From positions 62,001-126,000 of IMG/VR virus record IMGVR_UViG_3300025770_001492: 64,000 bases of DNA; one strand, given 5' to 3'. This stretch comes from a virus. The translations under genes were made by a program, and so were the position numbers. Under the pieces are notes generated by a model, which saw nothing but the letters and a program-made list of their open reading frames with translations, made no database searches and was not told the DNA's origin. Shown piece by piece: positions 15,401 to 60,969 of the stretch (position 1 is its first letter; the number at the start of each line of letters is the position of its first letter).

Positions 15401-16774
15401 TCTTGTCCCTCCACCCTGACAATATATTGTGCGTCTTCCATAAGTAGAATATGCTTGAAACCAAATTTCAACGCTTTTGTTCGGATAGCCACCGCTCGAC
15501 GTGCCCCCAGCAGCGAGTGGATTGTTGCCTATTAAATCATTGGCCGGAATTGACACATAGTCGTTTACTCCATCAAACTCAGCAGCGAAACCCCCTACTT
15601 CCTGAAGTATGCCACCCTCTCCAGTAGTCACAAAGTTTTTATATGTTCCATCAACTGCTGTGCCAATCGTTCCATAATTTTCAGCAACAGAAGCACCTGA
15701 CGATTCATCCAACTTCCAATATGCTATTGGTTGAGAACCAGATACAATGTCAACATAAGAGTCTTTTGATATAATCAAAGAACCTTGAGACATTGCTCTA
15801 AGTTCAGTGATTGAAGCAGCACTTGTTCCAGAAACTGACACCCCGCCCGATGCTGTGACGTACCTTTCGTCTGATTTGTCCAGAGCGGTTGATTCACCTG
15901 CGACAGAGATGCCACCAGAAGATACGCCGCCCCAAGCACTACTTTTAACTGACGACTGGCCCGATATTACAACGCCACCACTTGAGGTGTCAGATAAACT
16001 AAAGGATATTTCAGCCTGTCCTCCTATCGAAATCCCACCATTTACAGAATGACTTAATCTAAGATCGACATCTGCCGTGCCGCTAATCGTTTTTGGCCTC
16101 TCTTCTGCTAGTGTATCCGCCCAATAACTTAAATCAGATTGTAGAAGCAATCCTGATCCTGCAATTGTCACGACACCAGCATAATAGGCGTCGTTTTCTT
16201 TAACAATTCCGTCATTAAAACCATTATATTTTCCATCGCTGGAATCCGCCCACGGATGGTTTGATGCAGGTTGCCCAGCAGTCTCCATCGGAGACCCATC
16301 ATCTGATTGGTCTTCTGCAACTAAGACATTATCTACCCATACCCGAACCCTCGCTACTGGTTCGACTTGAAATTCCCACATTAAATCAAAATCTACATTC
16401 TGTGGCAGGGATGCAGTGGATATTTCAACTCTAGCGTAATTGTTTACATCGACCTCAGGGGTTCCTGGCCCGCCCGGGGGATATTTTCCATCTCCCATTC
16501 TGACAATCAATGTGCTTGATGAATTAAAGCCGCAATATCCACCTTTGGTATTCGACCCCATTTCAAAAATGCAACCGTATGGATTTTTTCCCGTTGGTAT
16601 TTTTATAGTTGCTTTGAATACAGAGTTTTGATTTGACCCCATGCTGGGAACAGCACCACCGGAATTGTAGTTATAGTCTCTGGTTATATTGGTGCCACTA
16701 GTGATCGATTCATCAGCAGATACAATAGGAGTCGGATCAAAATCAATGTCTGTTGCAAAACTGAAATCCGCCAT
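9482..16774 (-). CDS. giant repeat virion protein with three LamG-like domains (probable tail fibre/adhesin)
   Basis: 2,430 residues from ATG 16774 (SD AGGAAG; the earlier start at 16831 would read through the preceding small gene). By eye I count about 50 copies of a 17-21-residue repeat with core SGGxxLSGxS. They are interrupted by three concanavalin A/LamG-like domains (about 348-595, 720-948, 1285-1571), each starting with a W-K-L/F-D/N-E-S-S-G type block and ending with a strand carrying YLNG/KAYLNG. A Cys-rich insert (about 1805-1950; CQQPDCENATF, CQIPECAEFC) splits the last third. No signal peptide. Such repeats form elongated beta-rich shafts and LamG domains bind glycans, so a receptor-binding fibre is the best guess. 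Near-identical repeats in 13,400-13,950 indicate recent internal duplication. Confidence 0.85.
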   Translation of the reverse strand: MADFSFATDIDFDPTPIVSADESITSGTNITRDYNYNSGGAVPSMGSNQNSVFKATIKIPTGKNPYGCIFEMGSNTKGGYCGFNSSSTLIVRMGDGKYPPGGPGTPEVDVNNYARVEISTASLPQNVDFDLMWEFQVEPVARVRVWVDNVLVAEDQSDDGSPMETAGQPASNHPWADSSDGKYNGFNDGIVKENDAYYAGVVTIAGSGLLLQSDLSYWADTLAEERPKTISGTADVDLRLSHSVNGGISIGGQAEISFSLSDTSSGGVVISGQSSVKSSAWGGVSSGGISVAGESTALDKSDERYVTASGGVSVSGTSAASITELRAMSQGSLIISKDSYVDIVSGSQPIAYWKLDESSGASVAENYGTIGTAVDGTYKNFVTTGEGGILQEVGGFAAEFDGVNDYVSIPANDLIGNNPLAAGGTSSGGYPNKSVEIWFQAYSTYGRRTIYCQGGGTRGLNIYILDGILYVYGYNNGGAGASQWEKFVSAPVDAGGIYHVVLTFDNPTLSNTGGQLKGYLNGEEIGSESCGQLRSHTQAPFIGGTTAGVEYHDGFLVGNYFNGKINHLSLQNATLSATEVRRHYSAGVYNFNMILDGNPSGGLVADGGEPAVTLANRFWPSITYRSSNPFILSGESDHLITGYRHVSEGGITLGGSYEPYKISFVSSGGLVLSGDAVEEVQLFVTGSGGVSISGEVDITPKIIASGGLTLRSPRLFTLMASESAGFWPLDEGSGTVAKNRSSSGSAENGIHEGNIRWSEGLIPTESPLVRDFQKIPGDDRVERSDGTELRASGDKSIELWVSPNSLSGRRAIYTAGNAANGFNIYLDGSSLYAGAWDTSNSWQAFINVDDLELGEIYHVVLTFLDSTSFRLYLNGTEVGSDLSVGSMSIIPVATGYFGVRGQTKYHDGDVSGIGNFFEGRIGYIASYNIVLSQSDIETRQSYTYFPYGLSIPAESDGGITLSGSSDLLRTTGVGVAVSGESDYLMSSYYLVEGSGGLILSGDSEEQEQYFVEGSGGIALSGSSDLLRTTGVRATVSGESVTISGARIFEGSGGLILSGDSEEQEQYFVEGSGGVTLSGSYEPYEISFTSGGGVITSGESDAGMTNTSVEGSGGLILRSTTESKWQQSVTGSGGITIGGGSDAYVSLYIAGGGVSLSGQSGVTSSSFSFEPSGGLAISGNSSIRGDWLARGGVSLSGESNVYVTRQMDGEGGVSMSGQADLVASSFDYTSSGGISLTGVADALPIISHTSSGGITLSGEASLERKFIASGGIRVLPLTLSDLITSSDAVGFWKFNESSGTVSDNLGTEGDSLDGEYVGPIDLGSPPIIQATTDTTIDLSAIDADRVLIPDSDFINTGGPYTSKSVEIWFLPTKSIYSSFNQNMPLWHQGVGGPSPAINDFGHGIWIDYGSNSVVNPSRGNYLDIWIYDSTTDVGVAEPWSIRLGGGFTPNAGGSALDFVANWDKPHQVVITFESNWPSTGATLKAYLNGELIGTQTTTKLARLYDDRGACTGCNPSGDRNLVGGHLGYVTQSGTASPKFFDGQLGYTAYWNSVLSTEDVSAHYNSGFYFYSMSIPAESDGGITLSGSSDLLRTTGVGVSVAGESDAGMTNISVEGSGGLVLAGDSIDQREYSAEASGGIILSGESETSLIIPVVPSGGILLSGQSGVTSNSFAFESSGGLVVSGSSSVRGDWVARGGVQLSGSANVLLTKRFTSSGGLSVSGESDYLISGFNYVSSGGVIISGDSNEGVKDYKYESSGGLSLSGFAESKWLIAFESSGGLLITENIFNKTVVVVDYIFTQDFQWAVQGEVYSFQNFQWDVGESPLMFYRVEGDCQQPDCENATFDDGETCTQGKRFFQTVVARSVSDVCEKLKQAYFSYPMIWPVKSIKRFSRPANLNVIRSQEAQGINHDCLELVEEEFCQIPECAEFCLSEQPQVFMGMNVTIQDTFFVYESVGGLFASATSGEVGFYSYESTGGIVASGSITTESSSWIYESNGEVVLLGNSDISSEFYAYIGSGSIGVSGTIANESSSYTFVASSGIFLEGSSVQEVALEFIPLFPLISTSGEASVSTGGFNYISSGGITLSGEANNLKNNHSYEGDGGLIISGDSEDVSSYVTYAGSGGLSASGEVLISRSIESTGDISVSGSSGFIIHYSYESLGGIGLSGNPVVISSSWSASGSGSMSMGGSAGVFSSFLGTLTAYIGAEAELTEEAASFPGIITGDTLTIDDGTVTTICGCDPLPLTLSLKQNLNKSTLLRSFSTLNDITFPDILTLRYDSLNVSWRENIQYTGIGIDGSSQERWTFLFEFTCNNNNFISEQTQTPNWKLSLYIKRKNLVSLEDYDARLLYTFSRDTVCVSDKLNFEFNIDVDSKVSYVSGNSPYVVDYEVFHDSMGFFVGGWQTDPELKIQISESVLSSGVRKVDIISLFPV

Positions 16775-16776
16775 GG

Positions 16777-16911
16777 TCAGTCTTCCTTCCTGTGTGAAGC
16801 GTCCTTGAACAAGTCGCCAATTGAAGACCAAGATTGCGCAGGCGATACCACATCAGACTTGCCACTTGTCTGATAACTCCCGCTATCTGCTGTGTAAACG
16901 AAATCAGCCAT
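16777..16911 (-). CDS. 44-residue protein sharing the MADF start of the giant fibre protein
   Basis: A short frame from ATG 16911 to TGA 16777, fitting exactly between phoH and the giant gene (2 nt before its ATG). It begins MADFVYTADSGSYQTSGKSD; the next protein begins MADFSFATDIDF, so the two N-termini look related. It may be a small virion or assembly peptide, or a broken copy of the fibre N-terminus. No strong SD. Confidence 0.6.
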   Translation of the reverse strand: MADFVYTADSGSYQTSGKSDVVSPAQSWSSIGDLFKDASHRKED

Positions 16912-26476: not shown

Positions 26477-27964
26477 TTAATTACCTGTTTTCATACCTTG
26501 TGCCCAACTTATACCGTGTTCATAATTTGCAGTAACTGCCATTGTATGAGTTACCGCTTTATATGTGGCAGAAGCAGATGCTCCATATCCGCTCTTCTTC
26601 CAGCTTGAAAATGGAAGGTGGGATTCGGCAGCAATCGATCCGCCGTTTAAGTAGAGCATTCCAGTTGTACATTCTTGCTCAATTATTTTATGCTTTCTGT
26701 AGTCGTCTGTCACGATTCCCAAAGCAAGTCCGTAATCAGTGTCATTATAAATTCTGATTGCGTCATCTAAATCATCAAATGGGATCAATACAACATGTGG
26801 ACCAAAGACTTCGTTCTTTAAAAACTCTTTCTCGCCCCATTCACACTGATAAACAAAAGGTGTTAAAAAATATCCTTTTGGATGTGTGTTCTTAGTTGTG
26901 GAATCAGGAGATCCAGAAACTAGAACCTTGGCATCTTTGTCATCTCTCACCATTTGATTGAAAGACATAACTTTATCCATTTGTTCTTTGCTGATGATAG
27001 GTCCGTAAAAAGGAGCATCAGTTTCAAAGGGACAACCTGTACCAAGGGATGCAGCATGACTAGAGAAATCTCTGGAAAACTTATCAAAGATCGATCTTTG
27101 AACCAAAATCCTGCTCGAACTTACACATCGTTGTCCACTTAGCTTGAAAGCGGAGGCGATTGTTGCCTCTAATGCCAAATCATAATTTCCATCCTCAAAT
27201 ACAATTGTGGCGGACTTTGATCCACACTCCATGCTGCAAGTTTTTGTGAATGATTCTGCGCAGTGCTTTCTTATTTCCTGTCCTACTTCCGCAGAGCCAG
27301 TAAACAAGATGTGATCGACTTCCGATCTGACAAGGGCTTTTCCTGTTTCTCCAGCACCGTGTACCATGTTGTACACGCCTGGTGGGAAGCCTGCTTCGTC
27401 GTACAGCTTGGCGACCTTTTGTGCGATCATAGGTGTTAATTCTGATGGCTTATGCACCACCGTGTTGCCTTCCACAATTGCTGGAGCAGATGACCAAAAT
27501 GAACCAATCGCAAGAGGGAAATTCCAAGGACTGATGACTGCTATTACGCCTTTGGGTTTTCTTATTACTTTTGCATCTTTAGTTGACAGTTCAGATGCAA
27601 TCACTTCTCCATAAGGCTGACGACCAGCAGACGCTGCCACTTGACACATATGCAGGGCTTCAATTACTTCTGCATGTGACTCGTTTGTATTCTTTCCTGT
27701 TTCAAGAGAAATGGTTTTAACCAAGTCGTCATGATCTCTCTTTAGCAACTGAGCGAGCGTGTCGAAAAAGTCTGCTCGTTGGACTCTGCTTACTTTCTTC
27801 CAGCCATGTTGAACCGCACGAGCGACAGATACAGCTTCCTCAACCTCTTGTTTTGTGCTCTCTGGAAAACTTCCCAAACTATCTTCTGTAGCTGGGTTTA
27901 TGTTTTCAAAATCAGGGCGAGTTGGACAAAAATCGCCATTTACATAATTCATTCCTATAATCAT
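26477..27964 (-). CDS. NAD(P)-dependent aldehyde dehydrogenase
   Basis: 495 residues, full length. Cofactor segment SPWNFPLAIG, glycine motif FTGSAEVG, catalytic Glu in MECGSKS and catalytic Cys in SGQRCVSS are all present. It oxidises an aldehyde to the acid. Two genes upstream lies a 2-oxo-acid decarboxylase (29982-31613), which makes aldehydes, so the two may form a short pathway. ATG 27964 has a GAGGA SD; a second in-frame ATG follows at 27952. Confidence 0.93.
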   Translation of the reverse strand: MIIGMNYVNGDFCPTRPDFENINPATEDSLGSFPESTKQEVEEAVSVARAVQHGWKKVSRVQRADFFDTLAQLLKRDHDDLVKTISLETGKNTNESHAEVIEALHMCQVAASAGRQPYGEVIASELSTKDAKVIRKPKGVIAVISPWNFPLAIGSFWSSAPAIVEGNTVVHKPSELTPMIAQKVAKLYDEAGFPPGVYNMVHGAGETGKALVRSEVDHILFTGSAEVGQEIRKHCAESFTKTCSMECGSKSATIVFEDGNYDLALEATIASAFKLSGQRCVSSSRILVQRSIFDKFSRDFSSHAASLGTGCPFETDAPFYGPIISKEQMDKVMSFNQMVRDDKDAKVLVSGSPDSTTKNTHPKGYFLTPFVYQCEWGEKEFLKNEVFGPHVVLIPFDDLDDAIRIYNDTDYGLALGIVTDDYRKHKIIEQECTTGMLYLNGGSIAAESHLPFSSWKKSGYGASASATYKAVTHTMAVTANYEHGISWAQGMKTGN

Positions 27965-29981: not shown

Positions 29982-31613
29982 TTAGACTTTTTTCGCAAGC
30001 CCGCTTGTCATCCTCTCCAAAGCATTTGAAACATCATATGAGTCTAAGGAAACATTAATCAAAAACATTTCCTTAGCATTAAGGGCCTCGTCAACAACTG
30101 ACTCTAATTCAGATTCAGTCTCTACCATCGCCCCTTTACCTCCGCCAATTATATCAACAAACTTATGATAGTTCCAGTCAGGAATATCATTAAAATCCCC
30201 ATCCAATAAAAATCTTTCTGTGGTATAACCATGATTATTCAATATGAATATAATTGGATTTAATTTATTCGCAACAATAGTGCTTAACTCCGTGCAAGAC
30301 ATTTGAAAAGCACCATCGCCAACTATCACAATAGTCCTGCTATCGGGTCTGGCAAATCCTGCCCCCAACGCTCCCGGAATTGATGTGCCCATACTTGTGT
30401 AAAATGCAGAACCTAAAAAAGCATTTTTGTGATGCATTGTTAAATCTGCTGCCCCAAACAAACTGTCGCCTATGTCTGCAACGACCGACATATCTTTTGT
30501 CAGCAAAGAATCAATTTTATCAAACAACCTTTTGCTCGTAATCGGAGTACCCGCAAGCGGAGAGAAACTCTTATTAGATCGAGTATTCACCACAGAAGGC
30601 TTGTTTGAATGGGTAGGAATCGAAGCCTCATCAAAAAGTTTATTGCAAAAGTCTTCAAAATTTACAGAAGCATACATATGATTTTTAACTTTCAATCCTT
30701 GTATGCTGCAAGATACGGTATTCCTTTTTACAAATTTTGAAGGCATAAAGCTTAATGTCATATCAGTGAGCATCGCCCCAAACATAAGAAGACAATCAGA
30801 TCCCTCGACTGCTGCCTGCACTCCCTCTTGACTCGTGCTTCCAGCATATACGCCTAAATAAAGCGGATGAGTCTCGCCAATTACTGATTTGCTAAGAAGA
30901 GTTGTTGCAATTGGAATGTTCGCTTTTTCAGCAAACTTGACCAGTTTAGATCCAAGTCCAAATCTTGAAACCTCAATCCCTGCTAATATAACTGGATTTT
31001 TTGAATTATTTATCCAAGTTTCAACTTCTTCAAAAGACTCTTCTAAGTTTTGCAAATCTGTACTTGGAGAATCTGGAGTTCCCTGCTTGTAAACATCGTA
31101 ACCAATCGGCTTGTCCGCAACGTCTCTTGGAAGCTCAATATAGATGGGCTGCTTATAGTAGTGAAGGGCTTCAAAAGCTTTATCGATTTTGTATCCCGCT
31201 GTATTCGGGTCGTCTAGAACAACAGACTCACATGTGAAATTTTCAAAAACTTCTTTTTGACACTCGAATGAACGAACCATATGATGGAGCAAAACACCTT
31301 CGTCTCGCTCTTTCATTCCAGGCGAACCTGAAATGACAACTAAAGGAGACCTCTCAGCATAAGCACATTGAACTGCATTTATAAGTTTTGCTGCTCCAAC
31401 ATTATATGTGACACAAACGCAACCAATACCCTTTATTCTAGAATACGCATCTGCTGCAAATCCTGCGTGATTTTCGTCTGTAGTGTTGATCAAACTTATG
31501 TCTGAATTATTTAATTTTTTATAGAAATTAAGAACATAATCTCCAGGAACTCCAAAGACGTGTTCAATTCCAGAATTTTTCATTCTGTCGATTAAGAAAT
31601 CTGACACTAACAT
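29982..31613 (-). CDS. thiamine-diphosphate 2-oxo-acid decarboxylase (indolepyruvate/pyruvate decarboxylase type)
   Basis: 543 residues, full length. N-terminal catalytic Glu block (TTDENHAGFAADAYSR), the LLHHMVRSF His-His motif typical of pyruvate/indolepyruvate/phenylpyruvate decarboxylases near residue 113, and the thiamine diphosphate motif GDGAFQMSCTEL ... LNNHGYTTE. It should turn a 2-oxo acid into an aldehyde. With the aldehyde dehydrogenase nearby the pair could make a carboxylic acid. The substrate cannot be told from sequence alone. SD AAGGAG; a perfect TATAAATA site lies 30 nt upstream. Confidence 0.9.
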   Translation of the reverse strand: MLVSDFLIDRMKNSGIEHVFGVPGDYVLNFYKKLNNSDISLINTTDENHAGFAADAYSRIKGIGCVCVTYNVGAAKLINAVQCAYAERSPLVVISGSPGMKERDEGVLLHHMVRSFECQKEVFENFTCESVVLDDPNTAGYKIDKAFEALHYYKQPIYIELPRDVADKPIGYDVYKQGTPDSPSTDLQNLEESFEEVETWINNSKNPVILAGIEVSRFGLGSKLVKFAEKANIPIATTLLSKSVIGETHPLYLGVYAGSTSQEGVQAAVEGSDCLLMFGAMLTDMTLSFMPSKFVKRNTVSCSIQGLKVKNHMYASVNFEDFCNKLFDEASIPTHSNKPSVVNTRSNKSFSPLAGTPITSKRLFDKIDSLLTKDMSVVADIGDSLFGAADLTMHHKNAFLGSAFYTSMGTSIPGALGAGFARPDSRTIVIVGDGAFQMSCTELSTIVANKLNPIIFILNNHGYTTERFLLDGDFNDIPDWNYHKFVDIIGGGKGAMVETESELESVVDEALNAKEMFLINVSLDSYDVSNALERMTSGLAKKV

Positions 31614-45029: not shown

Positions 45030-47762
45030 TTATATTCCCACTATTGTAAAGCCTTCATCGTTTATATCTTTCAAAAGCTTTTCCTCTGCCTTGGAAGGCT
45101 CATGCTTTATTTCAACTTGTTCCGGTTTAGCCATGACGACGAGTCTGCCATCTGCTGCTTTTTCAGGTAGCTCCGAACGATTTCGTTTGGTCGGACTCTG
45201 AAAAACGTGACTGCTAAATCCGGGATCAGGTCGATTGATCCTCATTCTAAGAAAGTTACCTTGGCGGAATTCTCCGTCCCAATGCTCTATTTCTTCCTTA
45301 AATCTAACAAAATCATCTTCCCACATCGTCACCAGTCTTGTGTTAAAATTTTCATCTTGAACAGTAAAAACATAATAAGGATTTCCCTTTTTAGAAAGCC
45401 TCTCCTGTAATGATGACTCCTTTTTAGGAAGCCCTTTTTTATCCAAGCTTACTATCTGACATTCAATTGGTGCCCAAAGCAAGGTTGATTCCTCATCAAA
45501 ACGGTCAAAAGTCATTCCGCCTTTATAGTCAGGGCTGAACTCTATAGGATGCTGCCATGCGAATCCATAATACATCGATTCTGCAATGCCTAGCAACTCG
45601 TTGTAAACATTTTCAAATCCCGTGTCGATTTCTCCAGAAGGCATAAAATCAGCAAGAGTGATTGGCAGATCAGAATCTTTCTTCTTCTTCAAAGATTCGA
45701 CGTTTCTCTTGTACTTCTTTCCAATCTTTAAAATGTCTTCCAAATCATCTTTTAAGTGTTGGAAATTAAAATTCTCAAATTCAAATTCAGAAATGAAGAA
45801 ATCTTTCTTAGGCAAATCTAATAAACCGCTTTTCAGAATCTCTTTTAAAAAGTTTTCAGAGGAACCATCGCCCCCATTCTTGTAAAGAACGTAGTCCATC
45901 TCTTCTACAATTTTTAATTTAGATTTATCCGCACGCTTATCTCTGTCCTGACGCTTTTTTGTTTCATGTTTAAAGTACTCCCAAAATTCATGGAGCACCT
46001 TTCTGTCTTCCTCTTCTCCGAAGCAATTTAAGGCAATCAAAGGCTTTAGAACTTTTGAATCTGTGCCAAATCTTTGCAAGAAGTCATCAAATCCACTGTA
46101 TGGCTGTCCTTCCTCGATCTTATGAGAGACATCTTCCCCTATTCCCTTAATGTCAGAGAAGCCCATATAGACCAAATCATCAACAATTTCCCAGTTCCAA
46201 CCTGATTTGTTGATGTCTACCCTTTTTAGCTCTACACCATCTTTCTCTGCCTCAAGTTTGTAATCTTTAATTTTACCTGACTGGGTTTCGCATTGCAAAG
46301 TTCCACAATAAAACTCAATTGGAAAATGTGCCTTCAAGTAAAGAAGCCTAGACGAAATATAAGAATATGCGTAAGCGTGGCTTGCGTTAAATCCGTACTC
46401 TGAAAAAGCTTCCACTTGATCCCACAGTTCTTCAACTTCTTTCTTTTCCCAGCCGAGATTTGATTGCCCACGACCAACGAACTGCTCTTTATATCGAGCA
46501 AACTCCTTAACCTTTTTCTTACTCATTGCTTTTCTGACTTTTTCGCAATGAATAAGCGGAATGTCTCCCACGACATTCAAAATTTTCATAACCTGTTCTT
46601 GGTAAACCATAACTCCATATGTTCTGCCAAGAATTGGCCTGAGAATCGGATGCAAATCTCCATCCATGTCTGGAACTGGATTACTAACAGGCTCTTGTCC
46701 TCTTTTTCGCCTGATGTACGTTTTATCCATGTCCATATTAAGAGGGCCGGGTCTGTACAGAGCAGAATAAGCAGGTAAATCATCAAACCCTGTTACACCG
46801 CCTTTTTTAACCATCTCACGCATTCCATTAGAATCAAACTGGAAAATGCACTTTAGCTTTCCTTCATCCGCTAAAGCAATTGCTTTAGGGTCATTCAGAT
46901 AGGCAGTATCAGACCAATCGTCATCCGTGCCATCCAAAGCAGATATTGTCTTTATGTGAGGATGATTCCTTTTGACTAACTCGCTGATGGTTACAATTCT
47001 TTTCAAATCCGTAACAACCAAGAGGTCAAATTTAATCAAACCCAAAGGGCCTAAGTCGGTTCCAGACAGCCCTTCCACAAATGCAGAAACATAAGCGTCG
47101 TCTTTGCCCTTAACCAGTGGAACCAGTTTATTGATTCTTTGATCAGAAATGATTAGCCCACCAGCATGCATTCCCATTCCACGATTGCGATTTAAAAGCC
47201 TACGGGCAGCGTCTGCAACATCTGGATTGTCTTCGCAATATTTGCCCAATTTCTCAAATTGCTCTAAAGCTTTATCGAAAGTAAGAGTCTTGCCATCATT
47301 ATCTTTCAAGCCAAGCTGAGTGGTTAGTCCTATAATTTCATTTCGATCCTTATCATGGACCTTGGCCATATCAATTAAAGAACTTTTTATTCCGTAAGTT
47401 GTGTAGTTGCCAATTGCGCAAACATTTTCTTTTCCAAACTCTTTCGGTGCCCACTCAACCTTTAGATAATCACGAACTTGAGGTAAGTAATCTATATCAA
47501 TATCTGGAAACTCGCCCTGTACAGAAACTGGTGGCAAATTTATGTCGAAATCATCGACCAAGTCTAAAAGATAAGCAATTAAAAGATTGTTTTCATTGTT
47601 TTCAAATTTAGCTTTTTTAGAATGAAGATCTACAAAATACTCATGTTCCGCCTGAGCATCAAGCTCTTTAAGCTCCTCTCTTAATCGCTCTTTATATTCA
47701 GAAGAATCTAAGCCCTTTTTGGACATTCCTTCCACGCAAAGTTTTAGTAGTTGATCTCTCAT
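45030..47762 (-). CDS. dnaE: DNA polymerase III alpha, C-terminal part (palm to OB region)
   Basis: 910 residues. Catalytic palm motif PDIDID at 86-91 carries two of the three Asp; LIKFDLLVVTDLKRI supplies the third. Further matches: TYGVMVYQEQVMKI, NASHAYAYSYISSRLLYLKAHFP, a helix-hairpin-helix region and a C-terminal OB-type domain (PYYVFTVQDENFNTRLV). It lacks the PHP domain and the PGRGS loop, which are in the separate gene at 52260-53919. Its first 45 residues (LLKLCVEGMSKKGLDSSEYK...) repeat a block also present in the N-terminal gene, so the split looks like duplication followed by complementary loss. Confidence 0.93.
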   Translation of the reverse strand: MRDQLLKLCVEGMSKKGLDSSEYKERLREELKELDAQAEHEYFVDLHSKKAKFENNENNLLIAYLLDLVDDFDINLPPVSVQGEFPDIDIDYLPQVRDYLKVEWAPKEFGKENVCAIGNYTTYGIKSSLIDMAKVHDKDRNEIIGLTTQLGLKDNDGKTLTFDKALEQFEKLGKYCEDNPDVADAARRLLNRNRGMGMHAGGLIISDQRINKLVPLVKGKDDAYVSAFVEGLSGTDLGPLGLIKFDLLVVTDLKRIVTISELVKRNHPHIKTISALDGTDDDWSDTAYLNDPKAIALADEGKLKCIFQFDSNGMREMVKKGGVTGFDDLPAYSALYRPGPLNMDMDKTYIRRKRGQEPVSNPVPDMDGDLHPILRPILGRTYGVMVYQEQVMKILNVVGDIPLIHCEKVRKAMSKKKVKEFARYKEQFVGRGQSNLGWEKKEVEELWDQVEAFSEYGFNASHAYAYSYISSRLLYLKAHFPIEFYCGTLQCETQSGKIKDYKLEAEKDGVELKRVDINKSGWNWEIVDDLVYMGFSDIKGIGEDVSHKIEEGQPYSGFDDFLQRFGTDSKVLKPLIALNCFGEEEDRKVLHEFWEYFKHETKKRQDRDKRADKSKLKIVEEMDYVLYKNGGDGSSENFLKEILKSGLLDLPKKDFFISEFEFENFNFQHLKDDLEDILKIGKKYKRNVESLKKKKDSDLPITLADFMPSGEIDTGFENVYNELLGIAESMYYGFAWQHPIEFSPDYKGGMTFDRFDEESTLLWAPIECQIVSLDKKGLPKKESSLQERLSKKGNPYYVFTVQDENFNTRLVTMWEDDFVRFKEEIEHWDGEFRQGNFLRMRINRPDPGFSSHVFQSPTKRNRSELPEKAADGRLVVMAKPEQVEIKHEPSKAEEKLLKDINDEGFTIVGI

Positions 47763-49577: not shown

Positions 49578-49581
49578 TCAG

Positions 49582-49937
49582 TGGACCGGACGGGAGTCGA
49601 ACCCGTGTGTTGCGCTACCTATTCAAAAGCGTCTACCTGTATAGTTTGATGTTTGAGTTTCGCATCATTAAACCACAACAAACAAAGGTTTAAATCAACT
49701 ATCAAACAACGAGTCTTAGTTCAAAAGTAGTTTGATTTGCTTTGAACGCATCCAGTATTGCGGCAAGTTGTCAAACGTCACTGGCAGACCTTTGAAACTT
49801 GGGCTACTTATAATTAAGCAGCCATAGCGAAATTAGTTTTGTCAACTAAATTTTTAATCGGATTTTTAAGGAGCCTTCCGATCAACTCCTACAGGCAACT
49901 CAAGAACTCAACAGCCAATCGATACCATTTCCAGCCC
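49582..49937 (-). ncRNA. ssrA: transfer-messenger RNA (tmRNA)
   Basis: 356 nt. 5' GGGCTGG pairs with 3' CCGGTCC (two G-U pairs) to form the acceptor stem; the 3' part has a canonical T-arm (ACGGGTTCGACTCCCGT). The tag frame starts with a resume codon GAC after TAGTT (49843) and reads DKTNFAMAA then TAA (49814), so the tag ends AMAA rather than the usual ALAA. CCA is not encoded. It rescues stalled ribosomes and marks the products for proteolysis. Own terminator follows. A ClpP-like gene lies nearby. Confidence 0.95.
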
Positions 49938-52259: not shown

Positions 52260-53919
52260 TTATTGATCTGACCAAACACGATCAGTTCTTCCTAGAAAAG
52301 GCGCAGACTCAATTGCTTCGTCCATGGGAATGGGATCAATATTCGAAAAAGATGGTTCTCCCGAAAATCTAAACTTAATTTGTTTTCCGCCACGAGCAGG
52401 ACTCAAAAATCTAGAAAACAATAGACCATGCTTGATTGGATCGACATCCGTTATCCCAAGACAGTAGCAACTAAGAGCACCAACTGCCGAGCCTCTTCCG
52501 GGACCGACTGCCGAAGAACCGCTGGAGCCATATGTCTCAAAGTACCATCTTCTGGCTTCATCGGTCATCATTTTTTGGATCAAAAAGTAAGAGGAAAAGC
52601 CTTTTTGGCAAATTAAAGAATATTCTTCTTCTATCCTATCCAAATATTCTTTATTCCTAGGAATTTTCCTCTTAACAACCCCTTCTATGATTGATTCCTT
52701 AAACTTAATGTCAGATTCGCTAAATGCAGGAAGTTTGATAGTTCTATCAAGCTTTACGCCTTTTGCTTTTTCGCAAAGGGCAACGGTATTTAACTTGGCC
52801 TGCTTAAGTATTTCGTAATCTATTACATCCTTGTAATCACTTTCCCACTTCGCATTTATCTCTTCTTCTGACTTCATCCATAAGTTTGAATCTTGCAATT
52901 CGAACATATCAGCCATGTCATTCTGTGCCAACGCTTGTTCGATTTGCTTCATGGTTCTTCCTGTTTGAACCATAATCATCTTTCTCTGCATTTCGCTGTC
53001 TTCTTTGAGACAGTAGTGGCAATCATTTGTAACAATAATTGGTAAATTATATTTTTGGCTGGCTTTTATTATAAACTCATCATAAGGCTTTTGTTTCGAG
53101 AAGTCTAAAAGCATTATTTCTAGATAGAAGTTTTCTCCGAACATGGCCATATATTTTTCGACCATCTCCATAGCTGGACCTTCGCCACCCACATCAAAAG
53201 CTTGTCCAATTTCACTGTTATAACAGCAAGAAGTGAATATAATTCCTTCTTTATATTGCATGAGGACTTCGTGATTGACTCTGGGTTTCCTGTAGAAACC
53301 CCTCGTCCAACCCCAAGATGAAAGAGTAACCAGATTGCTGTAGCCTGTTTCATTATAGGCTATGGCAAGCAGATGATTCGATTTTCTTAACTTGGCTTGC
53401 TCTTCTTGCGTACCCAGACCTCTATTGAATTCCGTCATAGAAGGAATAGTGGTCGTGTCAGGCTGCAACTGATTTACATAAAGCTCACAAGCAAATATAG
53501 GCTCTAGGTTGTTTTCATCGCATGCTCTAATCTGGCGTGGGACAGAACCCATCGCACCATGATCTGATATGCATAAAAACTTTTGATTTACCTGTTTAGA
53601 ATATTTTCCATATTCTTCAACAGTGGCGTATCCATCTAAGCACAAACTCCACAGTTTCTTGTGGTGTAGACTATATCATCACCCCGAAGGGTGTCGGACG
53701 CTCTGGCCTGTAATTAAGAGGACTGAACCTCTCAGGTAGTCGTTGCACGTTCCAAAAGTGTACTTCTGGCTTCGCTCAGGATTGCCCTCGACTTTACGTT
53801 AGGGTTTCCCTGAATTCATCCGATTTGCATGCAAGATTTCTCTCACATGGCCCCAGTTAGTTAAGGCTGAAATCAGTATGTCTGTGTAGATGTTCAAAAC
53901 CTACAATCAGGTCTTTCAT
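52260..53919 (-). CDS. dnaE: DNA polymerase III alpha, N-terminal part (PHP domain), interrupted by a group I intron
   Basis: Two exons: 53864-53919 and 52260-53640. Exon 1 starts at ATG 53919 (SD GGAG) with MKDLIVGFEHLHRHTDFS; splicing restores HLHRHTDFSLLDGYATVEEY, the conserved start of the PHP domain. PHP metal-site segments CISDHG, FACELYV, NHLLAIAY and TNDCHY are kept, so a proofreading exonuclease is possible. The end holds GPGRGSAVGALSCYCLG and LLFSRFLSPA, then a unique tail; it stops before the catalytic PDIDID, which is in 45030-47762. About 478 residues after splicing. Confidence 0.92.
53641..53863 (-). ncRNA. group I self-splicing intron in dnaE (223 nt, no ORF)
   Basis: 5' site after exon ...AGCCT (U as last exon base) with an internal guide GGGGCC pairing GCCU (U-G at the site); the intron ends in G before CTTAGATGG. 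Core elements are present on the minus strand: GGGCAATCCTGAGC (53774-53787), GTGCAACGACTA with GACTA (53737-53741) pairing TAGTC in GATATAGTC (53669-53673), and an ACACCC/GGGTG hairpin between them. No homing endonuclease inside; an HNH gene lies at 62523-62801. Confidence 0.9.
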
Positions 53920-53992: not shown

Positions 53993-54495
53993 TGTTTCCA
54001 TTTGCCCGTCTTTTCATTTTTAAAGTAAAAAGCAGCTTTTGGATCTTGTGTGTCTACCTTGAAGAAAGGCTCAGATCCTTTTCTGTTTCTGCACCACTTG
54101 TTTTCAACAGGCGACTCCAGCATGGCTTCACGATTTACAATGAACAGCCTTTTGTAATCGCCCCCGATTATCATCATATGAGTGGCATGCTCTTCTGCTT
54201 TGTCCCTTTTGCGGTAAGGGAAGTCCATTGTATGAAATTTGAAAGGAACGTCAAACCATTTTGTTCCCCAATCTTGCTTTATCTCGGCCTCAATTCTCCA
54301 TTCACCGATACTCTTTTTTGAATGCGTTCCAGCAACATCCCATATCTTTTTAAATTTTCCTCTGCTCTCGTCTAAGTTCTCTGATATTTTTTTGAATCCA
54401 CGTTGTTGTAAAAATTCCGTTGCCACTAGCTTTGCAGGTCCATCATACTTTTCGTACCTATCTTTGCAAAACCTTATATCATTAGGTTTTGGCAT
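53980..54495 (-). CDS. unknown protein, possible PD-(D/E)xK-like nuclease fold
   Basis: 171 residues from ATG 54495 (SD AAGGA; overlaps the ClpP stop as TGATG). Segment WDVAGTHSKKSIGEWRIEAEIKQDW is reminiscent of a restriction-endonuclease-like D...ExK arrangement, but this is weak. Many Lys and Trp. Confidence 0.5.
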   Translation of the reverse strand: MPKPNDIRFCKDRYEKYDGPAKLVATEFLQQRGFKKISENLDESRGKFKKIWDVAGTHSKKSIGEWRIEAEIKQDWGTKWFDVPFKFHTMDFPYRKRDKAEEHATHMMIIGGDYKRLFIVNREAMLESPVENKWCRNRKGSEPFFKVDTQDPKAAFYFKNEKTGKWKQWKD

Positions 54496-55208
54496 CAAAT
54501 ACATTCCTTAAACTTAGAGCATCTCCTTATCTTTGCTATAGTTTCGAAACCTTTGGTTCCCAAAATCCCATCAGCAAAGCCGTAGTACACTGCCTCTTCC
54601 GCAGACATGTACCAATCACTCTTATCCTTGAGCTTTTTATCTATCCAAGATATAATTCGTGATTCTGTGTATTCTTTCTCTAAAAAGAACTCTCCAATCT
54701 TACAGCGTCTAGCAAATATTTGCAACATACGTTTCATATATTTATTATTCATTTCCACAGCGGAGTTTACAGCTATGGAGTTATCATGCAAAGCTATAGA
54801 ACCATGGTGAATCATGAATTCACAATTAGGCGTTAAAACTCTTTTATCAGCCGCTTGCAACAAAATTCCACTCATAGAAGAAGCTTGTGCATAAGTAACA
54901 AACGTGACTGATGAGTTTGCAAATCTAATTGCATCAAACATCGCTAACCCATCGCACCAACTTCCGCCAGTAGAATGCATGTGTACCAGTACGTTTTCAG
55001 AATTCTGATTCTCTAAAACAGATAAATTTTTATTAAATCTAACTGCCATTCTGTAATCTACACCTGGTTCGGAATCGTCAGACAAAGGGCTTAAAGAACT
55101 GTGCAGAAAGAGTTCTCTTGTATAGTGATTGATATTGTGAGAGTGAACATCGCTGAGAAGCTGTTCAATTTCCGACTTTTTACGCAAACTATTTTTCGTT
55201 GTAGCCAT
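54495..55208 (-). CDS. clpP: ClpP-like serine protease
   Basis: 237 residues from ATG 55208 (SD GGAGG). HSTGGSWCDGLAMFDAI, the nucleophile Ser in AQASSMSGILL and the catalytic His in FMIHHGS are seen; a final Asp is plausible in the SWID/KDKSDWY region. N-terminus is about 40 residues longer than typical. It may degrade host proteins or process virion proteins; T4-type prohead proteases are a different fold but ClpP-like prohead proteases are known in other phages. Confidence 0.85.
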   Translation of the reverse strand: MATTKNSLRKKSEIEQLLSDVHSHNINHYTRELFLHSSLSPLSDDSEPGVDYRMAVRFNKNLSVLENQNSENVLVHMHSTGGSWCDGLAMFDAIRFANSSVTFVTYAQASSMSGILLQAADKRVLTPNCEFMIHHGSIALHDNSIAVNSAVEMNNKYMKRMLQIFARRCKIGEFFLEKEYTESRIISWIDKKLKDKSDWYMSAEEAVYYGFADGILGTKGFETIAKIRRCSKFKECI

Positions 55209-55320
55209 CGCAACCTCCAAAAAAGTCTTTATTTAATTCACTATTATATATCTGATTTATATTCTATTTATCTTTTTTAACTTCCTTCCTAGGAAAATAT
55301 TAAAACTATTAACTTCAAAA

Positions 55321-55458: not shown

Positions 55459-57051
55459 CTATAGCGATTCGTATTCTTCTCTGGTCATGACGGCCACATC
55501 GCCATCCTGTGTTCCTACGCACCAATAAACTATTTCTTCGTCATCGGAACCAGTAGTAGACAACACCACATCATTCCCCCAAATGAATCTTAAAGACTTT
55601 AAAGTGGGGATTAAATCCGGCTCATACAAGCCTCTGCCATCGGAGTTGTGCTCTAGCAACATGACTCCCTTGCCTTGGTGGTTTGGATCTACTAGATATA
55701 TCTCTGGCAAGCCTCCATTCAAATGTCTTTTGATCAACTTACTTTTGATTGACTTGTGGTCACGATTTTCAATCTTGTACTCGCCATTTGGATATCTTTT
55801 CCATTCAAAAAACTCATATTTATTACAAAAATCTTCTGTGAAAAACTCCATCAAAGCTGTTAGGTCATTATATTGCTTTCGAACATCAAATATTTTATCT
55901 CTGCCTAGACCTAGATTCTTATCCCAATTTTCTTTTTCTACTATATTGCTACATTCTTCGTACTCTTGGCCAAACTTGCCTTTATTCCACCTCTCTTCGA
56001 TATCCAACAAAAGACAGAATCCTAGCTTATAAGGATTCATCGAATACTTGCCTCCGAGAACGCCCATCTTGTGAGCGGAGTATTCAACGATGCCGCAGTC
56101 TTCGCCTGTCTGCCCTAAGCCACAAAGTCCCATTTCACACATTACTGTATAATCTGTAAAGCTTGCCCATCCTTCGTTGAGCATTTTTGTAACTCTTTGA
56201 GGCGAAAAATATAAACTTTCCTCATACATCATGGAAAGAATGTCTGACTGCCAAGGTTTCAAAGGAGCACTATCTCTTAAAAATCCCATAATGTCTTTAG
56301 TTGGATTTTTAAATATTCCAATTTGCTGTGCGGCCTCATCTCGACTAATCTTTTCTTTTTGGCCATCAATCCATCTTTTAGGATTGATATAAGGCTCCAT
56401 GTAATCACGGTCAGAATTTACACCTAACCTTTTAGGCTGCTTGTAGGTTCTCTCATCTTGTATGACACGATCTTTTACAACCTTTTCTTCCCAAGCCTTC
56501 GCTGAGTCTATCAAAGTTTCAATCGAGCAGCAGTGGTCGATAAATTCTGTAACTTTCTCCACGCCCCAACGCTGCATGTATTTTCGGATGCGGGTTCCAT
56601 GATTAGCAAGTTGGTTCATCATATTTTGCGAGGTGGGCGCAAAATATATGTTGTTCTTAAAAAAGTCATTGTGGCCTAAAGCGTGAGCAATAACCGTAAC
56701 ATTATCCACCAGCGTATTTGAATCCAAACAGTAGATGTAACAAGGATTGGTATTAATAACCATTTCATAAATTCGGTGCATCCCATGCTCGTAACCTTTT
56801 TGAAGGCTTTCGTATTCCATTCCCCATTTCCAGTGTGGGTAACGAACTGGAAATCCTCCGTAAGATGCAACTTCACTTATTTCATCGTAAGTCAGCATCT
56901 GAACAACGGTGGGATAAAAATCGCAGCCGAAGTCTTTAACTGCCTTGAATATGTCAGGCATAATCTTCTTAAGCTCACTAGGAAGCTGAACGCCTGGCAC
57001 AGTGCTGTCACCGAGAAGCAGAGAAGAGCCTCTGAAAAATTTACTAGACAT
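55459..57051 (-). CDS. spoVR: SpoVR/YcgB family protein
   Basis: 530 residues, full length. Characteristic blocks: DFYPTVVQMLTYDEISEVASYGGFPVRYPHW, the GYEHGMHRIYEMVINTNPCYIY segment and YKLGFCLLLDIEERWNKGKFG (given in parts). In bacteria it is linked to sporulation or stress and co-occurs with YeaH and PrkA, as here. Its biochemical role is not established. Confidence 0.92.
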   Translation of the reverse strand: MSSKFFRGSSLLLGDSTVPGVQLPSELKKIMPDIFKAVKDFGCDFYPTVVQMLTYDEISEVASYGGFPVRYPHWKWGMEYESLQKGYEHGMHRIYEMVINTNPCYIYCLDSNTLVDNVTVIAHALGHNDFFKNNIYFAPTSQNMMNQLANHGTRIRKYMQRWGVEKVTEFIDHCCSIETLIDSAKAWEEKVVKDRVIQDERTYKQPKRLGVNSDRDYMEPYINPKRWIDGQKEKISRDEAAQQIGIFKNPTKDIMGFLRDSAPLKPWQSDILSMMYEESLYFSPQRVTKMLNEGWASFTDYTVMCEMGLCGLGQTGEDCGIVEYSAHKMGVLGGKYSMNPYKLGFCLLLDIEERWNKGKFGQEYEECSNIVEKENWDKNLGLGRDKIFDVRKQYNDLTALMEFFTEDFCNKYEFFEWKRYPNGEYKIENRDHKSIKSKLIKRHLNGGLPEIYLVDPNHQGKGVMLLEHNSDGRGLYEPDLIPTLKSLRFIWGNDVVLSTTGSDDEEIVYWCVGTQDGDVAVMTREEYESL

Positions 57052-57056
57052 ATTTT

Positions 57057-58289
57057 TTATCCTTGAATCTTCTTTTCTATTAAACCCGGTTTTCCTAATA
57101 AATCAATAATTGCTTCTCTGATTTTTACGTCTCTTTCTTCCTCTGAAATTTCAGAAGCAGGCCCCCAACTAGATACATTGTCTTCTGAGTCAGACATTAT
57201 ATCTGTGGTCACAACGTTAGAAGGAGGGCTTTCCGACATTAAAACATTCTCATCTACATATTCTTTCAAGCTTCCCTTGTATCTCCAAGGCAAAATTTGA
57301 GCTATTCCTATAAAGTTGACAATATCTTCTGTGAATTGATCTTTTATTATTTTTGAAAAGACTTCGTTGTCATTGTCCCAGTTTTCCCCGTCAGTAAAAT
57401 AAATTACGTACACATTCCACTTTTCAGGAGGAAACCTATTTTCCATCTGCTTTGAAATTAATTTCAAAGCAGATGAACATGTTGTTCCACCACCATATCG
57501 GTATTTATAGAATCTTTTCTCATCAACTTCCGAAGCTTCTGTGTCGTGCCAAATATAACATCTTTCGACACGTTTATAAAACTGCCTTATCCATAAATCT
57601 ATCCACCAAGACATATCGCTAACAATATCACACTTTGTCTGGTCCATTGAAGCAGATCCATCACGAGCGAAAAATATAACAGCATTGCTCGATGGAACTT
57701 TTATTTCTTTATATCGCCTATACCTGCGATCACTGTTTATCGGCATGATCATTTTTACAGGCTCCTTCATGCCGGGAATGGCATGGAGTTTTTCCAATTC
57801 TCCAGAAGCAGCCATTCTCTTCATGGCTTGCTGCATAGTTCTTCGATTGTGCCTTAAGGATTCTGGACCTTGTAATGAAATATCATTGTATTTAATTTTA
57901 ATTTCATCATAAGTTTGATTTGGCTTTGGCTTTAAATCAGGAAGTTCTAATTCATCCTGAAGAAATTTTAAAACATCTTCCAAGTCTATGGATATAGTAA
58001 CGCCATCAGATTGTCCTTGTCCTGCCTTGCCCTTGCCTTTTCCATCGCCTGGATCATCTCTCCCAACTACGTCTCCAGGTTTTCCACCGCCACGTCCGAC
58101 TCCCTCGCCACTATTCCCATAAACAATATGTGGTATGTCTATTTTTGGGATTGTGATGTTTATCTTTTTCCCATCTCCACGAGTTCTAAATATAGATCCG
58201 TTTTTAATCCTCTTTTGAAGATCTTTTCTTATTCGGCCAGAATAAACATCTCTAAATCTTTTGTGGTCTTCTTCAATACGTCTTGGCAT
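57057..58289 (-). CDS. yeaH: YeaH/DUF444 family (von Willebrand A-like) protein
   Basis: 410 residues from ATG 58289 (SD AAAGGG). MPRRIEEDHKRFRDVYSGR is the family start; a Gly-rich linker (about 55-90) precedes a vWA-like domain with MIDAS FARDGSASM near 210 and YGGGTTCSSALKLI. A partner of PrkA and SpoVR. Contains a 32-nt perfect palindrome (57444-57475). Confidence 0.9.
   Translation of the reverse strand: MPRRIEEDHKRFRDVYSGRIRKDLQKRIKNGSIFRTRGDGKKINITIPKIDIPHIVYGNSGEGVGRGGGKPGDVVGRDDPGDGKGKGKAGQGQSDGVTISIDLEDVLKFLQDELELPDLKPKPNQTYDEIKIKYNDISLQGPESLRHNRRTMQQAMKRMAASGELEKLHAIPGMKEPVKMIMPINSDRRYRRYKEIKVPSSNAVIFFARDGSASMDQTKCDIVSDMSWWIDLWIRQFYKRVERCYIWHDTEASEVDEKRFYKYRYGGGTTCSSALKLISKQMENRFPPEKWNVYVIYFTDGENWDNDNEVFSKIIKDQFTEDIVNFIGIAQILPWRYKGSLKEYVDENVLMSESPPSNVVTTDIMSDSEDNVSSWGPASEISEEERDVKIREAIIDLLGKPGLIEKKIQG
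57444..57475. repeat. 32-nt perfect palindrome inside yeaH
   Basis: CATCTGCTTTGAAATT (57444-57459) is followed immediately by its exact reverse complement (57460-57475), within the coding frame. Confidence 0.95.
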
Positions 58290-58318
58290 TACTGAACCCT
58301 TTAGTAGTCTAAAATAAA

Positions 58319-58351
58319 GAGCCACCCCCACAAAGAAGTGAAGAGTGGCTC
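58319..58351 (-). terminator. attenuator-like hairpin between prkA and yeaH
   Basis: GAGCCAC/GTGGCTC 7-bp stem with a long loop, then TTTATTTT on the minus strand, between the prkA stop (58365) and the yeaH SD. May set the prkA:yeaH ratio. Confidence 0.6.
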
Positions 58352-58364
58352 ATCCTCTTTATAT

Positions 58365-60479
58365 CTAGGAGTCGTTAGCTACATCGCCTCTTGCAAATAT
58401 AGAACCAACATAATCAAGAACATCCGTTGCGGATTTTTCGTTATATCCATGATGCTTAATCAAGCGGGACTTAATTGCATCAATTTTTTCTTGAACGTCT
58501 GGATCAACTACAGAGGCACCAAGAGAATTTAAAGCAGAAAGCTTTATGTGATCTCTAGTGTCTTCGAATAGTTTGGTTTGCAAAGCCTTTTGCAACTGTG
58601 GGTTACTATCCCACTTAAAGGTTTTGCTTTCATGGGCAAGATTTCCAATGAAAGCTGCCAAACTTCTGCGGAAGTCGTCAGAGCCAACTTCTGGAACATC
58701 AATTTTTTCTTCAATCGATCTCATCAACTGCTCATCTGGCAACTGTTCCTGTCCTGTGTACGGATTGGTCACTTTTGCCTTTTTAATGTATGCCATCACG
58801 TTATCGACATAATTAGTACAAAGTCTAATAATGGCATTCTCATCACCAACAAGTGCTTTTTGAACTTCTGTTTTCAAAATCTCATCTAGCTCTTTCATAG
58901 CAAAATCAACACAAGTGTTAAACCTACTTGCGTCCTCTTGATTAGAGATCAAAGAAGATCCGTCAAGTCCTTCACGAATTTCATTCAGCACCATGAATGG
59001 ATTGATGTAATCATGGTGAGAACTCAAACAGTTAGAAATCTTGTCCTGAACATATCGAGCAGAGACTCCGCCAGACATCCCTTCATTTGGATATTTATCT
59101 CGCATTTCTTTTACTGAATCTTCAGTCCAGCCAGGCATTGATTTTCCATCATAAAGCTTTGACTTCTCTACCAAAGAAATTTTGCCATCTTTATCATCTT
59201 GCAATCTTGTCAAAACCGCCCAAAGAGCGGCAATCTCTAAAGTATGAGGAGCAACATGCTGAGGAACTTTACTTTTGCCGTAATCGTTCTGATAAACTTT
59301 AAGTTCATCAGAAAGACTTAAAAGATATGGAACATCGATCTTCACAGTTCTATCACGCAAGGCTTCCATGCTTTGATTGTTCTTGAGTTTTTCATACTCA
59401 GGATTATTTGTATGCCCAATTAAGACTTCATCGACCCCAATCTGAGCGAACTTTTTCGGCTTTATGCTTCGCTCTTGAGACGCTCCCAAAAGATCGTACA
59501 AAAACTCTTGAGCAAGCTTCAGCATCTCAATAAATTCAACAACACCACGATTCCCCACACAAAACTCACCATCAAAGTTGAAAGCTCTAGGATCACTATC
59601 AGATCCAAAGTGAGGAAGCTTCGCATAATTGATGTCACCAGTTAGCTCAGTAGCATCTTGATTCTTTTCGTCTTTAGGTTGAAAAGTTGCAATCCCGCAT
59701 CTGTCTGCTTCAGAATAAACTTTTCTCACAACAACAATGTGCTCGTCAACAACCTTTCTCCAATCACCCTTGTGTATTTTCAAAAGTTCATCCATAAACT
59801 TTTTACATCTCGGATTAAGCTCCCCGTCGCAACGGAGTTCGTATGTTTGCTCTCCTTGAGGGTGATTCCCAAACTCTGCCTTTACTTCATTCAAATCTTT
59901 GAGAAGTTCTGCTCGTACTTTCATGGGCACTAACTTAATGGGATCGTCATGCATCGGACAATCATCAGAATCATTTGTATAAATTCCATCGGACCCTGTT
60001 GGAAGGTTTTTCCAACGGTATGTATACCAAGCACCTTGGTCTGTTTGAGAGTATTCTTCCATGCCTCTTTTGATAAGTCGGCAAATTGTAGACTTAGACG
60101 AACCTACTGGCCCGTGGAGAAGAAGAATTCTTTTTTCGGTTCCGTACCAACCGGCAGCACCCCGAATAAATTTAACCAATTCATGTAGAGTATTGTCCAA
60201 ACCATAAATTGGAATTTCATCATTATCAAAGAAGTTATAATGGATATAGGTTTTTCGATACTTTTTAAACTCAGAAGTTCCAGCATTCATGATCATATCA
60301 TAAACTCGCTGGTAAGCTGATCGGACTAAGCCTGGACTTTTATAACAACTATCAATGTACTCAGAAAAAGTCATTTCCTGATTAAGTGTTTGAAATTTAC
60401 CAGTATCAAAAAATCCAGCAAGCTTGTCTAGCTTAGAAGTGCCTTCATGCTCTTCCTTGTTGAAATTTTCATTTTCCAT
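58365..60479 (-). CDS. prkA: PrkA/YeaG serine protein kinase
   Basis: 704 residues. N-terminal MTFSEYIDSCYKSPGLVRSA and NFFDNDEIPIYGLDNTLHEL, an AAA-like P-loop GPVGSSKST near 130, AQIGVDEVLIGHTNNPEY, RTVKIDVPYLL and SARYVQDKIS. All are typical of PrkA. In E. coli YeaG acts with YeaH in starvation responses. About 60 residues longer than E. coli YeaG. SD AGGAAC. First gene of the prkA-yeaH-spoVR group. Confidence 0.92.
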   Translation of the reverse strand: MENENFNKEEHEGTSKLDKLAGFFDTGKFQTLNQEMTFSEYIDSCYKSPGLVRSAYQRVYDMIMNAGTSEFKKYRKTYIHYNFFDNDEIPIYGLDNTLHELVKFIRGAAGWYGTEKRILLLHGPVGSSKSTICRLIKRGMEEYSQTDQGAWYTYRWKNLPTGSDGIYTNDSDDCPMHDDPIKLVPMKVRAELLKDLNEVKAEFGNHPQGEQTYELRCDGELNPRCKKFMDELLKIHKGDWRKVVDEHIVVVRKVYSEADRCGIATFQPKDEKNQDATELTGDINYAKLPHFGSDSDPRAFNFDGEFCVGNRGVVEFIEMLKLAQEFLYDLLGASQERSIKPKKFAQIGVDEVLIGHTNNPEYEKLKNNQSMEALRDRTVKIDVPYLLSLSDELKVYQNDYGKSKVPQHVAPHTLEIAALWAVLTRLQDDKDGKISLVEKSKLYDGKSMPGWTEDSVKEMRDKYPNEGMSGGVSARYVQDKISNCLSSHHDYINPFMVLNEIREGLDGSSLISNQEDASRFNTCVDFAMKELDEILKTEVQKALVGDENAIIRLCTNYVDNVMAYIKKAKVTNPYTGQEQLPDEQLMRSIEEKIDVPEVGSDDFRRSLAAFIGNLAHESKTFKWDSNPQLQKALQTKLFEDTRDHIKLSALNSLGASVVDPDVQEKIDAIKSRLIKHHGYNEKSATDVLDYVGSIFARGDVANDS

Positions 60480-60600: not shown

Positions 60601-60969
60601 TTACTTAACCTCGCCAAAATTTTCGCCACTAGTGATGTCATCGATCTGTTGACCAAACTTTTTAACATCAGCATCTCCATACGGATCAGTTCCCATTTTG
60701 CTAACAGCTTCTGCAATTTTTCTGGTCGCTTTCACACCGCCTGGTTTTTCCATTTTATGTTTAAACCTATAATCGTGCGAATTGTTAAACTTATCTGTTC
60801 CCTCTGGATTTGAAAAAGAAAAATTTGTAGAAGAAACCAAAGAAACTTTTGATTTTGATCCACATTCAGGACACTTGGCTTTTTTTATATTTTCTTCCCT
60901 GTTGGACATTGTAGACATGATGTCATAATCATGTCTACATTTTTTACATTCTAATTCATAAAAAGGCAT
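60601..60969 (-). CDS. FmdB-type zinc-ribbon protein
   Basis: 122 residues. MPFYELECKKCRHDYDI ... KCPECGSKSKV is an FmdB-like CxxC-CxxC ribbon at the N-terminus, followed by a Lys-rich tail. A 12-bp hairpin lies over the CRHDYDIMST codons. Function unknown, possibly regulatory. Confidence 0.75.
   Translation of the reverse strand: MPFYELECKKCRHDYDIMSTMSNREENIKKAKCPECGSKSKVSLVSSTNFSFSNPEGTDKFNNSHDYRFKHKMEKPGGVKATRKIAEAVSKMGTDPYGDADVKKFGQQIDDITSGENFGEVK
60910..60939. repeat. intragenic 12-bp inverted repeat
   Basis: TGTAGACATGAT (60910-60921) and ATCATGTCTACA (60928-60939), 6-nt loop, inside the zinc-ribbon gene. Confidence 0.93.

Follow-up and report, generated by a model that had tools for sequence, protein, structure and literature searches.

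A complete prkA-yeaH-spoVR module under purifying selection in a phage genome, and its possible role in protein remodelling

PrkA, YeaH and SpoVR are encoded by a widespread bacterial stress gene set that has no agreed biochemical function. Here we describe the three genes in a 64,000-nucleotide stretch of viral DNA, hereafter the window (positions 62,001 to 126,000 of IMG/VR record IMGVR_UViG_3300025770_001492), taken from a virus record of 245,522 bp. A preliminary description, made from the letters of the window, had called prkA, yeaH and spoVR full length and in one orientation, and this holds: the open reading frames (ORFs) are complete and all three lie on the minus strand. The genes, and the hairpin between the first two, are as follows.

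58365..60479, minus strand: prkA, 704 aa; AAA+ ATPase domain at residues 36-430 and PrkA C-terminal domain at 437-690; 'long PrkA' subfamily
57057..58289, minus strand: yeaH (DUF444), 410 aa from the ATG at 58289; vWA-type
55459..57051, minus strand: spoVR, 530 aa; predicted zincin-like fold with H123-x3-H127 and N292-E293-G-x-A296
58319..58351, minus strand: intrinsic-terminator-like hairpin between prkA and yeaH; perfect stem GAGCCAC(19 nt)GTGGCTC, then TTTATTTT

PrkA scores 268 bits against Pfam PF08298 (AAA_PrkA) and 236 bits against PF06798 (the C-terminal domain), where the cut-off is 25; YeaH, at 235 bits for PF04285 (DUF444), is likewise far above its cut-off, and SpoVR matches PF04293 with 356 bits over profile positions 5-404 of 407. 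The SpoVR_C domain (PF24755) reaches 22.2 bits on the window protein for a cut-off of 27.6, with relatives over or near that value. The ORF containing yeaH opens at a GTG at 58331 (ORF 57057-58331). That GTG falls within the hairpin, and the alignment with relatives begins at the ATG at 58289 (MPRRIEEDHK...), which is therefore the more probable start. The hairpin, which the preliminary description had called attenuator-like, is real (fold z = -2.1; its exact pattern was matched 0 times in shuffled windows), however, it is terminator-like and not conserved, which gives no support to a role as a conserved attenuator. Among 67 distinct relatives, 27 have a prkA-yeaH gap of less than 60 nt with no hairpin, and others carry unrelated hairpins in the gap, some of them strong terminators.

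Elsewhere in the same record a contractile tail sheath is encoded (G000:C1:204531-204824), and the window itself encodes PhoH, a T4-type RNA ligase/tail-fibre attachment protein, a DNA methyltransferase, a two-part DNA polymerase III alpha gene and a transfer-messenger RNA (tmRNA). Searches of the record for a terminase (PF03237 and PHROG 2) and for a Gp23-type capsid gave no match; the record may be incomplete. The module locus is syntenic with the 595-kb phage LR756511, where prkA, yeaH and spoVR are adjacent in the same order as in the window, 54-66% identical to it and members of the same group. Loci identical to the window module are present on two other metagenome contigs (L002 and L003), and loci about 70% identical on dozens more.

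Searching IMG/VR with prkA returned 133 matching stretches. The loci all come from this prkA-based search, and contigs with the sheath gene are mostly short fragments. Of the retained loci, 75 have enough sequence, and in all 75 yeaH and spoVR come after prkA in the same order and on the same strand; five further retained loci end at a contig edge before a complete module. The module is therefore present in at least 75 IMG/VR loci and is not unique to the window, and some of the contigs bearing it exceed 400 kb. It is under strong purifying selection, with median pairwise ratios of nonsynonymous to synonymous substitution (dN/dS) of 0.039 for prkA, 0.063 for yeaH and 0.080 for spoVR. An artefact has next to no probability: a bacterial contig is contradicted by the tail sheath and by the many independent contigs with the same neighbours, degenerate passenger genes by the low dN/dS, an assembly join is very unlikely given the identical and the roughly 70%-identical loci on other contigs, and nothing was found in favour of any of these. 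Together this confirms that the module sits in a genuine phage genome, and it bears out the preliminary picture of a complete, co-oriented phage module akin to bacterial genes of starvation, stationary phase and sporulation.

A phylogeny against bacterial copies, proposed as a check in the preliminary description, placed the phage sequences in one clade in all three trees. For PrkA, a scan of one genome per species yielded bacterial relatives 51-54% identical to it, from Planctomycetota, Myxococcota, Chloroflexota, Calditrichota and further lineages (53-54% for proteins of Planctomycetota, Chloroflexota and Calditrichota); in many bacteria with the long-type PrkA, prkA, yeaH and spoVR occur in the same order as in the window. 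The phage rows of the PrkA tree form a single clade on a long stem (Shimodaira-Hasegawa-like approximate likelihood ratio test, SH-aLRT, 100), and its neighbours, at moderate support, are Planctomycetota sequences and one unclassified bacterium. The SpoVR and YeaH trees each contain a single phage clade and do not resolve the donor lineage. Judged from these sequences, the phage genes derive from the 'long PrkA' subfamily, whose members in Planctomycetota, Myxococcota, Chloroflexota and Calditrichota belong to an operon of the same make-up, and this ancestry is new.

Phage carriage of these genes as such is already on record. SpoVR and a serine-kinase are annotated in phiYS40, SpoVR and PrkA have been published for the Ralstonia jumbo phage RsoM2USA (PMC8504454), and spoVR genes have been reported from viromes of the eastern tropical North Pacific (ETNP) oxygen-minimum zone (PMC8940887). 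Phages acquired the trio at least three times: in the window clade, in huge phages with an E. coli-type trio, and in Thermus phages. The E. coli-type trio is found in three phages of 634–642 kb (LR745206, LR756502 and LR756504), with PrkA 62-65% identical to YeaG and SpoVR at 53-54% identity; the Thermus phages have a third type of trio with another gene order, on a separate branch of the PrkA tree. In LR756502.1 (642 kb), spoVR lies about 243 kb from prkA-yeaH, with all three genes kept; the two loci are at 273831-277139 and 519956-521401. The yeaG/yeaH genes of Enterobacter phage LAU1 (98%/93% identical to E. coli) were set aside, being at the record's end and probably host flank. At least three captures by large phages, each with all three families retained, argue that the trio works together and has a shared function.

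Conserved residues of PrkA point to an AAA+ motor. The window protein has the Walker A motif G123-P-x-G-x-x-K129-S130, and K129, S130, H356, N358 and R377, which are residues of the Walker A, sensor and arginine-finger types, do not vary among phages, bacteria and E. coli. The position of E. coli K426, a residue taken as the kinase lysine, is Asp479 in the window PrkA, with a lysine one residue further on. Among long-type proteins, Asp occupies this position in 37 of 38 from phages and in 79 of 80 from bacteria. In E. coli YeaG, K116A and R232A in the AAA+ part and K426A each abolish complementation, and yeaG and yeaH mutants have a starvation phenotype in common (PMC4664914). For B. anthracis PrkA, kinase activity was undetected and protease activity negligible (PMC13001217). 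Given the invariance of the AAA+ residues, the Asp in place of K426 and the kinase-negative B. anthracis protein, we prefer the AAA+ reading; the residue census speaks against a kinase for the long-PrkA subfamily. A long-type homologue has been solved (9xip, 9xiq and 9xir, with 30 chains across the three entries), which is compatible with an oligomer, and PrkA would act as one.

In YeaH, the metal-ion-dependent adhesion site (MIDAS) residues D210, S212, S214, T269 and D300 are common to phages, E. coli and Thermus phages. A sequence search of the PDB with YeaH gave no match. By analogy, YeaH may be a vWA adaptor; RavA-ViaA is a known AAA+/vWA pair.

SpoVR likewise had no match in a PDB sequence search. 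Two AlphaFold2 models of it (predicted local distance difference test scores of 80 and 82.7) were compared with PDB structures. When candidates from a Foldseek search were aligned to the models with VIA-align, nearly all top matches were zincins, and zinc peptidases of families M1, M32, M4 and M2 had Z values of 6-11: 3o0y at Z 11.4, the cold aminopeptidase 3cia at 10.4, leukotriene A4 (LTA4) hydrolase 1gw6 at 10.0, M32 carboxypeptidase 5giv at 8.9 and vibriolysin 3nqx at 8.1, then ACE/ACE2-type enzymes. Almost every SpoVR examined has an H-x3-H helix (H-x4-H in the E. coli type) and, on a later core helix, [NH]EGxA; in a motif census of phage and bacterial proteins H123, H127 and E293 are conserved. 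The general-base Glu of HExxH is replaced, the motif reading HA[TLI]GH in phage SpoVR and HV[YFT..][GA]H in bacteria. E. coli PepN has HEYFHNWTGN and KEGLT at places comparable to the SpoVR motifs. Naming of SpoVR as a metallopeptidase was not found among the literature matches listed, which is not conclusive.

In-frame inserts of some 340-440 codons occur in about a dozen distinct phage spoVR genes, following N100, immediately following NEGWA296, or in both places; Pfam recognises Intein_splicing and LAGLIDADG_3 in them. The homing inteins of spoVR are at loci L011, L013, L017, L019, L021, L036, L048, L052, L061, L066 and L067, and in some genes of the phage clade both sites are occupied at once. 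Intein-like in-frame inserts also occur elsewhere in the clade, in the DnaE PHP gene (L039, L046, L054 and L081) and in prkA (L102), and bacterial spoVR genes, mostly of Chloroflexota, have inteins at the NEGxA site (L176, L177, L180 and L232). The phage inteins at the second site (site b) are about 43% identical over 407 residues to the same-site intein in the Chloroflexota SpoVR L180, a resemblance that suggests intein exchange between phages and bacteria. None of the papers searched pairs SpoVR with inteins. As a rule, inteins lodge where a protein is functional and most conserved. Their position therefore supports the NEGxA region as a candidate active or binding site, to which the zincin-like model, with inteins at the same spot, also points.

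With moderate confidence, we infer that the phage PrkA-YeaH-SpoVR set is a captured AAA+/vWA/zincin-like protein-remodelling module that aids large phages in stressed or slow hosts. In the clade of the window phage, the module would stem from a single capture out of bacteria with the 'long PrkA' type and would have been retained whole. Most likely PrkA forms an AAA+ ATPase ring and YeaH is a metal-ion-dependent vWA adaptor, with SpoVR as a zincin-fold effector or client that keeps the metal-ligand-like His, His and Glu and lacks the usual catalytic Glu. Motor and adaptor would act together with SpoVR, remodelling it or target proteins, and this would let a long infection proceed in slow-growing or stressed hosts. 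More tentatively, SpoVR may be a zincin-fold, possibly metal-binding effector driven by the PrkA/YeaH motor, the whole machine having been captured independently by several unrelated lineages of very large phages because lengthy infections of slow or starved hosts would require it; this fuller version is possible rather than probable. Several results weigh against the remodelling proposal. The prkA and yeaH genes are sometimes up to 2.5 kb apart with terminators between them, and strict co-transcription is therefore not required. Foldseek of the SpoVR models against the PDB gave no significant match (best E 0.26), and hhalign of the SpoVR family with E. coli PepN gave no homology, which leaves the structure comparison and the motifs as the basis of the metallopeptidase link. 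For this reason, and because the general-base Glu is replaced, we call SpoVR zincin-like and not a peptidase.

A further result on that side of the balance is the reported in vitro phosphorylation of AceA by YeaG (PMC8055822). It bears on the mechanism implied by the preliminary description, in which PrkA would be a Ser/Thr kinase and the phage would use phosphorylation to impose or mimic starvation in its host. The bacterial homologues are indeed induced by starvation and stress (PMC4664914, PMC8055822), and effects of YeaG on rpoS and on toxin-antitoxin genes are known from E. coli (PMC4664914, PMC8055822). However, the window PrkA is just 26% identical to YeaG, its subfamily has Asp in place of K426, and the B. 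anthracis protein has no detectable kinase activity (PMC13001217), so the kinase mechanism is not supported and we regard this explanation as quite improbable. Helping phage or host to tolerate an existing stress explains the same data as an imposed starvation programme, itself one possible outcome, and is simpler. Least probable of the biological explanations, in our estimate, is that the module shields infection from host growth-arrest defences, for example by damping toxin-antitoxin activity. E. coli YeaG represses mqsRA and dinJ-yafQ, and the yeaG mutant phenotype involves them (PMC4664914), however, that effect is transcriptional, may be indirect and has no direct phage link, and no defence genes were seen among the annotated neighbours.

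The neighbours of the module bear on another explanation, that it serves the phage's own proteins as an AAA+/vWA chaperone set folding or maturing virion or replication proteins. In relatives, the gene upstream usually encodes a zinc-ribbon protein, and the one downstream often a DnaE PHP domain; in the window the flanking genes are as follows.

60601..60969, minus strand: zinc-ribbon protein (FmdB-like), PF09723; upstream neighbour of prkA in most relatives
54495..55220, minus strand: ClpP-like protease/head-maturation-protease homologue, PF00574 at 81 bits

In favour of the chaperone explanation, many relatives have a ClpP/head-maturation-protease homologue and the DnaE PHP gene beside the locus, and the module is conserved as if it were core to the clade. 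However, the ClpP homologue is the downstream neighbour in 28 relative loci, a minority, and in bacteria the trio forms an operon by itself; we consider the chaperone role unlikely, and a captured remodelling module for stressed hosts remains our preferred explanation. If the fuller version of it, with an independently captured machine, is true, phages would be tractable systems for the long-open question of YeaG/YeaH/YcgB function. E293, H123, H127, D479 and K129 stand out as candidate residues.

Other features of the window were noted in passing. The Ser/His/Asp residues of the ClpP homologue are apparently intact by eye, and the same region contains the tmRNA gene (49581-49937, minus strand; tag peptide DKTNFAMAA). 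DNA polymerase III alpha is in two parts (45030-47762 and 52260-53645, minus strand): its PHP part stops after '...LLFSRFLSPARGG', and the polymerase part picks up at 'PDIDIDYLP...' some 4.5 kb away; the tmRNA and other ORFs lie in the gap. A group I intron (Rfam RF00028, 90.7 bits; 53648-53873, minus strand) lies directly upstream of the DnaE PHP-domain ORF (52260-53645), and the TTG 'start' of that ORF is therefore likely to mark an exon boundary, in which case the 5′ exon is located farther upstream. An aldehyde dehydrogenase (427 bits; 26477-27964) and a thiamine-pyrophosphate enzyme with all three domains (29982-31613), both on the minus strand, have a UDP-glucose dehydrogenase-like gene nearby in an apparently metabolic cluster. 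The ORF at 9482-16831 (minus strand; 2449 aa), of raised GC content (up to 45%) and without a PHROG match, is possibly a giant tail or adhesin protein.

Set against known systems, the predicted fold of SpoVR residues 13-414 resembles the gluzincins (M1, M32, M4 and M2), whose HExxH ... (N/K)EG arrangement is resembled by the SpoVR His-x3-His helix and NEGxA helix. SpoVR differs from them in having Ala (phage) or Val (bacteria) for the Glu of HExxH and about 165 residues between the motifs. RsoM2USA and the ETNP viromes have phage SpoVR as the window does, but these were reported as isolated annotations, and the RsoM2USA protein shares 56% identity with one from Vibrio. E. coli yeaG-yeaH and ycgB belong to the same three families, with AAA+ and MIDAS residues conserved, however, that type has a short PrkA with a lysine at 426, H-x4-H in SpoVR and about 26% identity to the window, and ycgB, unlike the window spoVR, is unlinked to yeaG-yeaH. 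The Thermus phages phiYS40, TMA, phiLo, MN1 and Lalka8 resemble the window in carrying DUF444, SpoVR and PrkA together in tailed-phage genomes, but their order is yeaH-spoVR-prkA and their PrkA, at about 30% identity, is on a separate branch. As for the bacterial long-PrkA operon of Planctomycetota, Myxococcota, Chloroflexota and Calditrichota, although the phage sequences form their own long-stemmed clade in all three trees and YeaH and SpoVR are only about 32-43% identical, the order, strand and subfamily are the same, and PrkA is 52-54% identical to that of the window.

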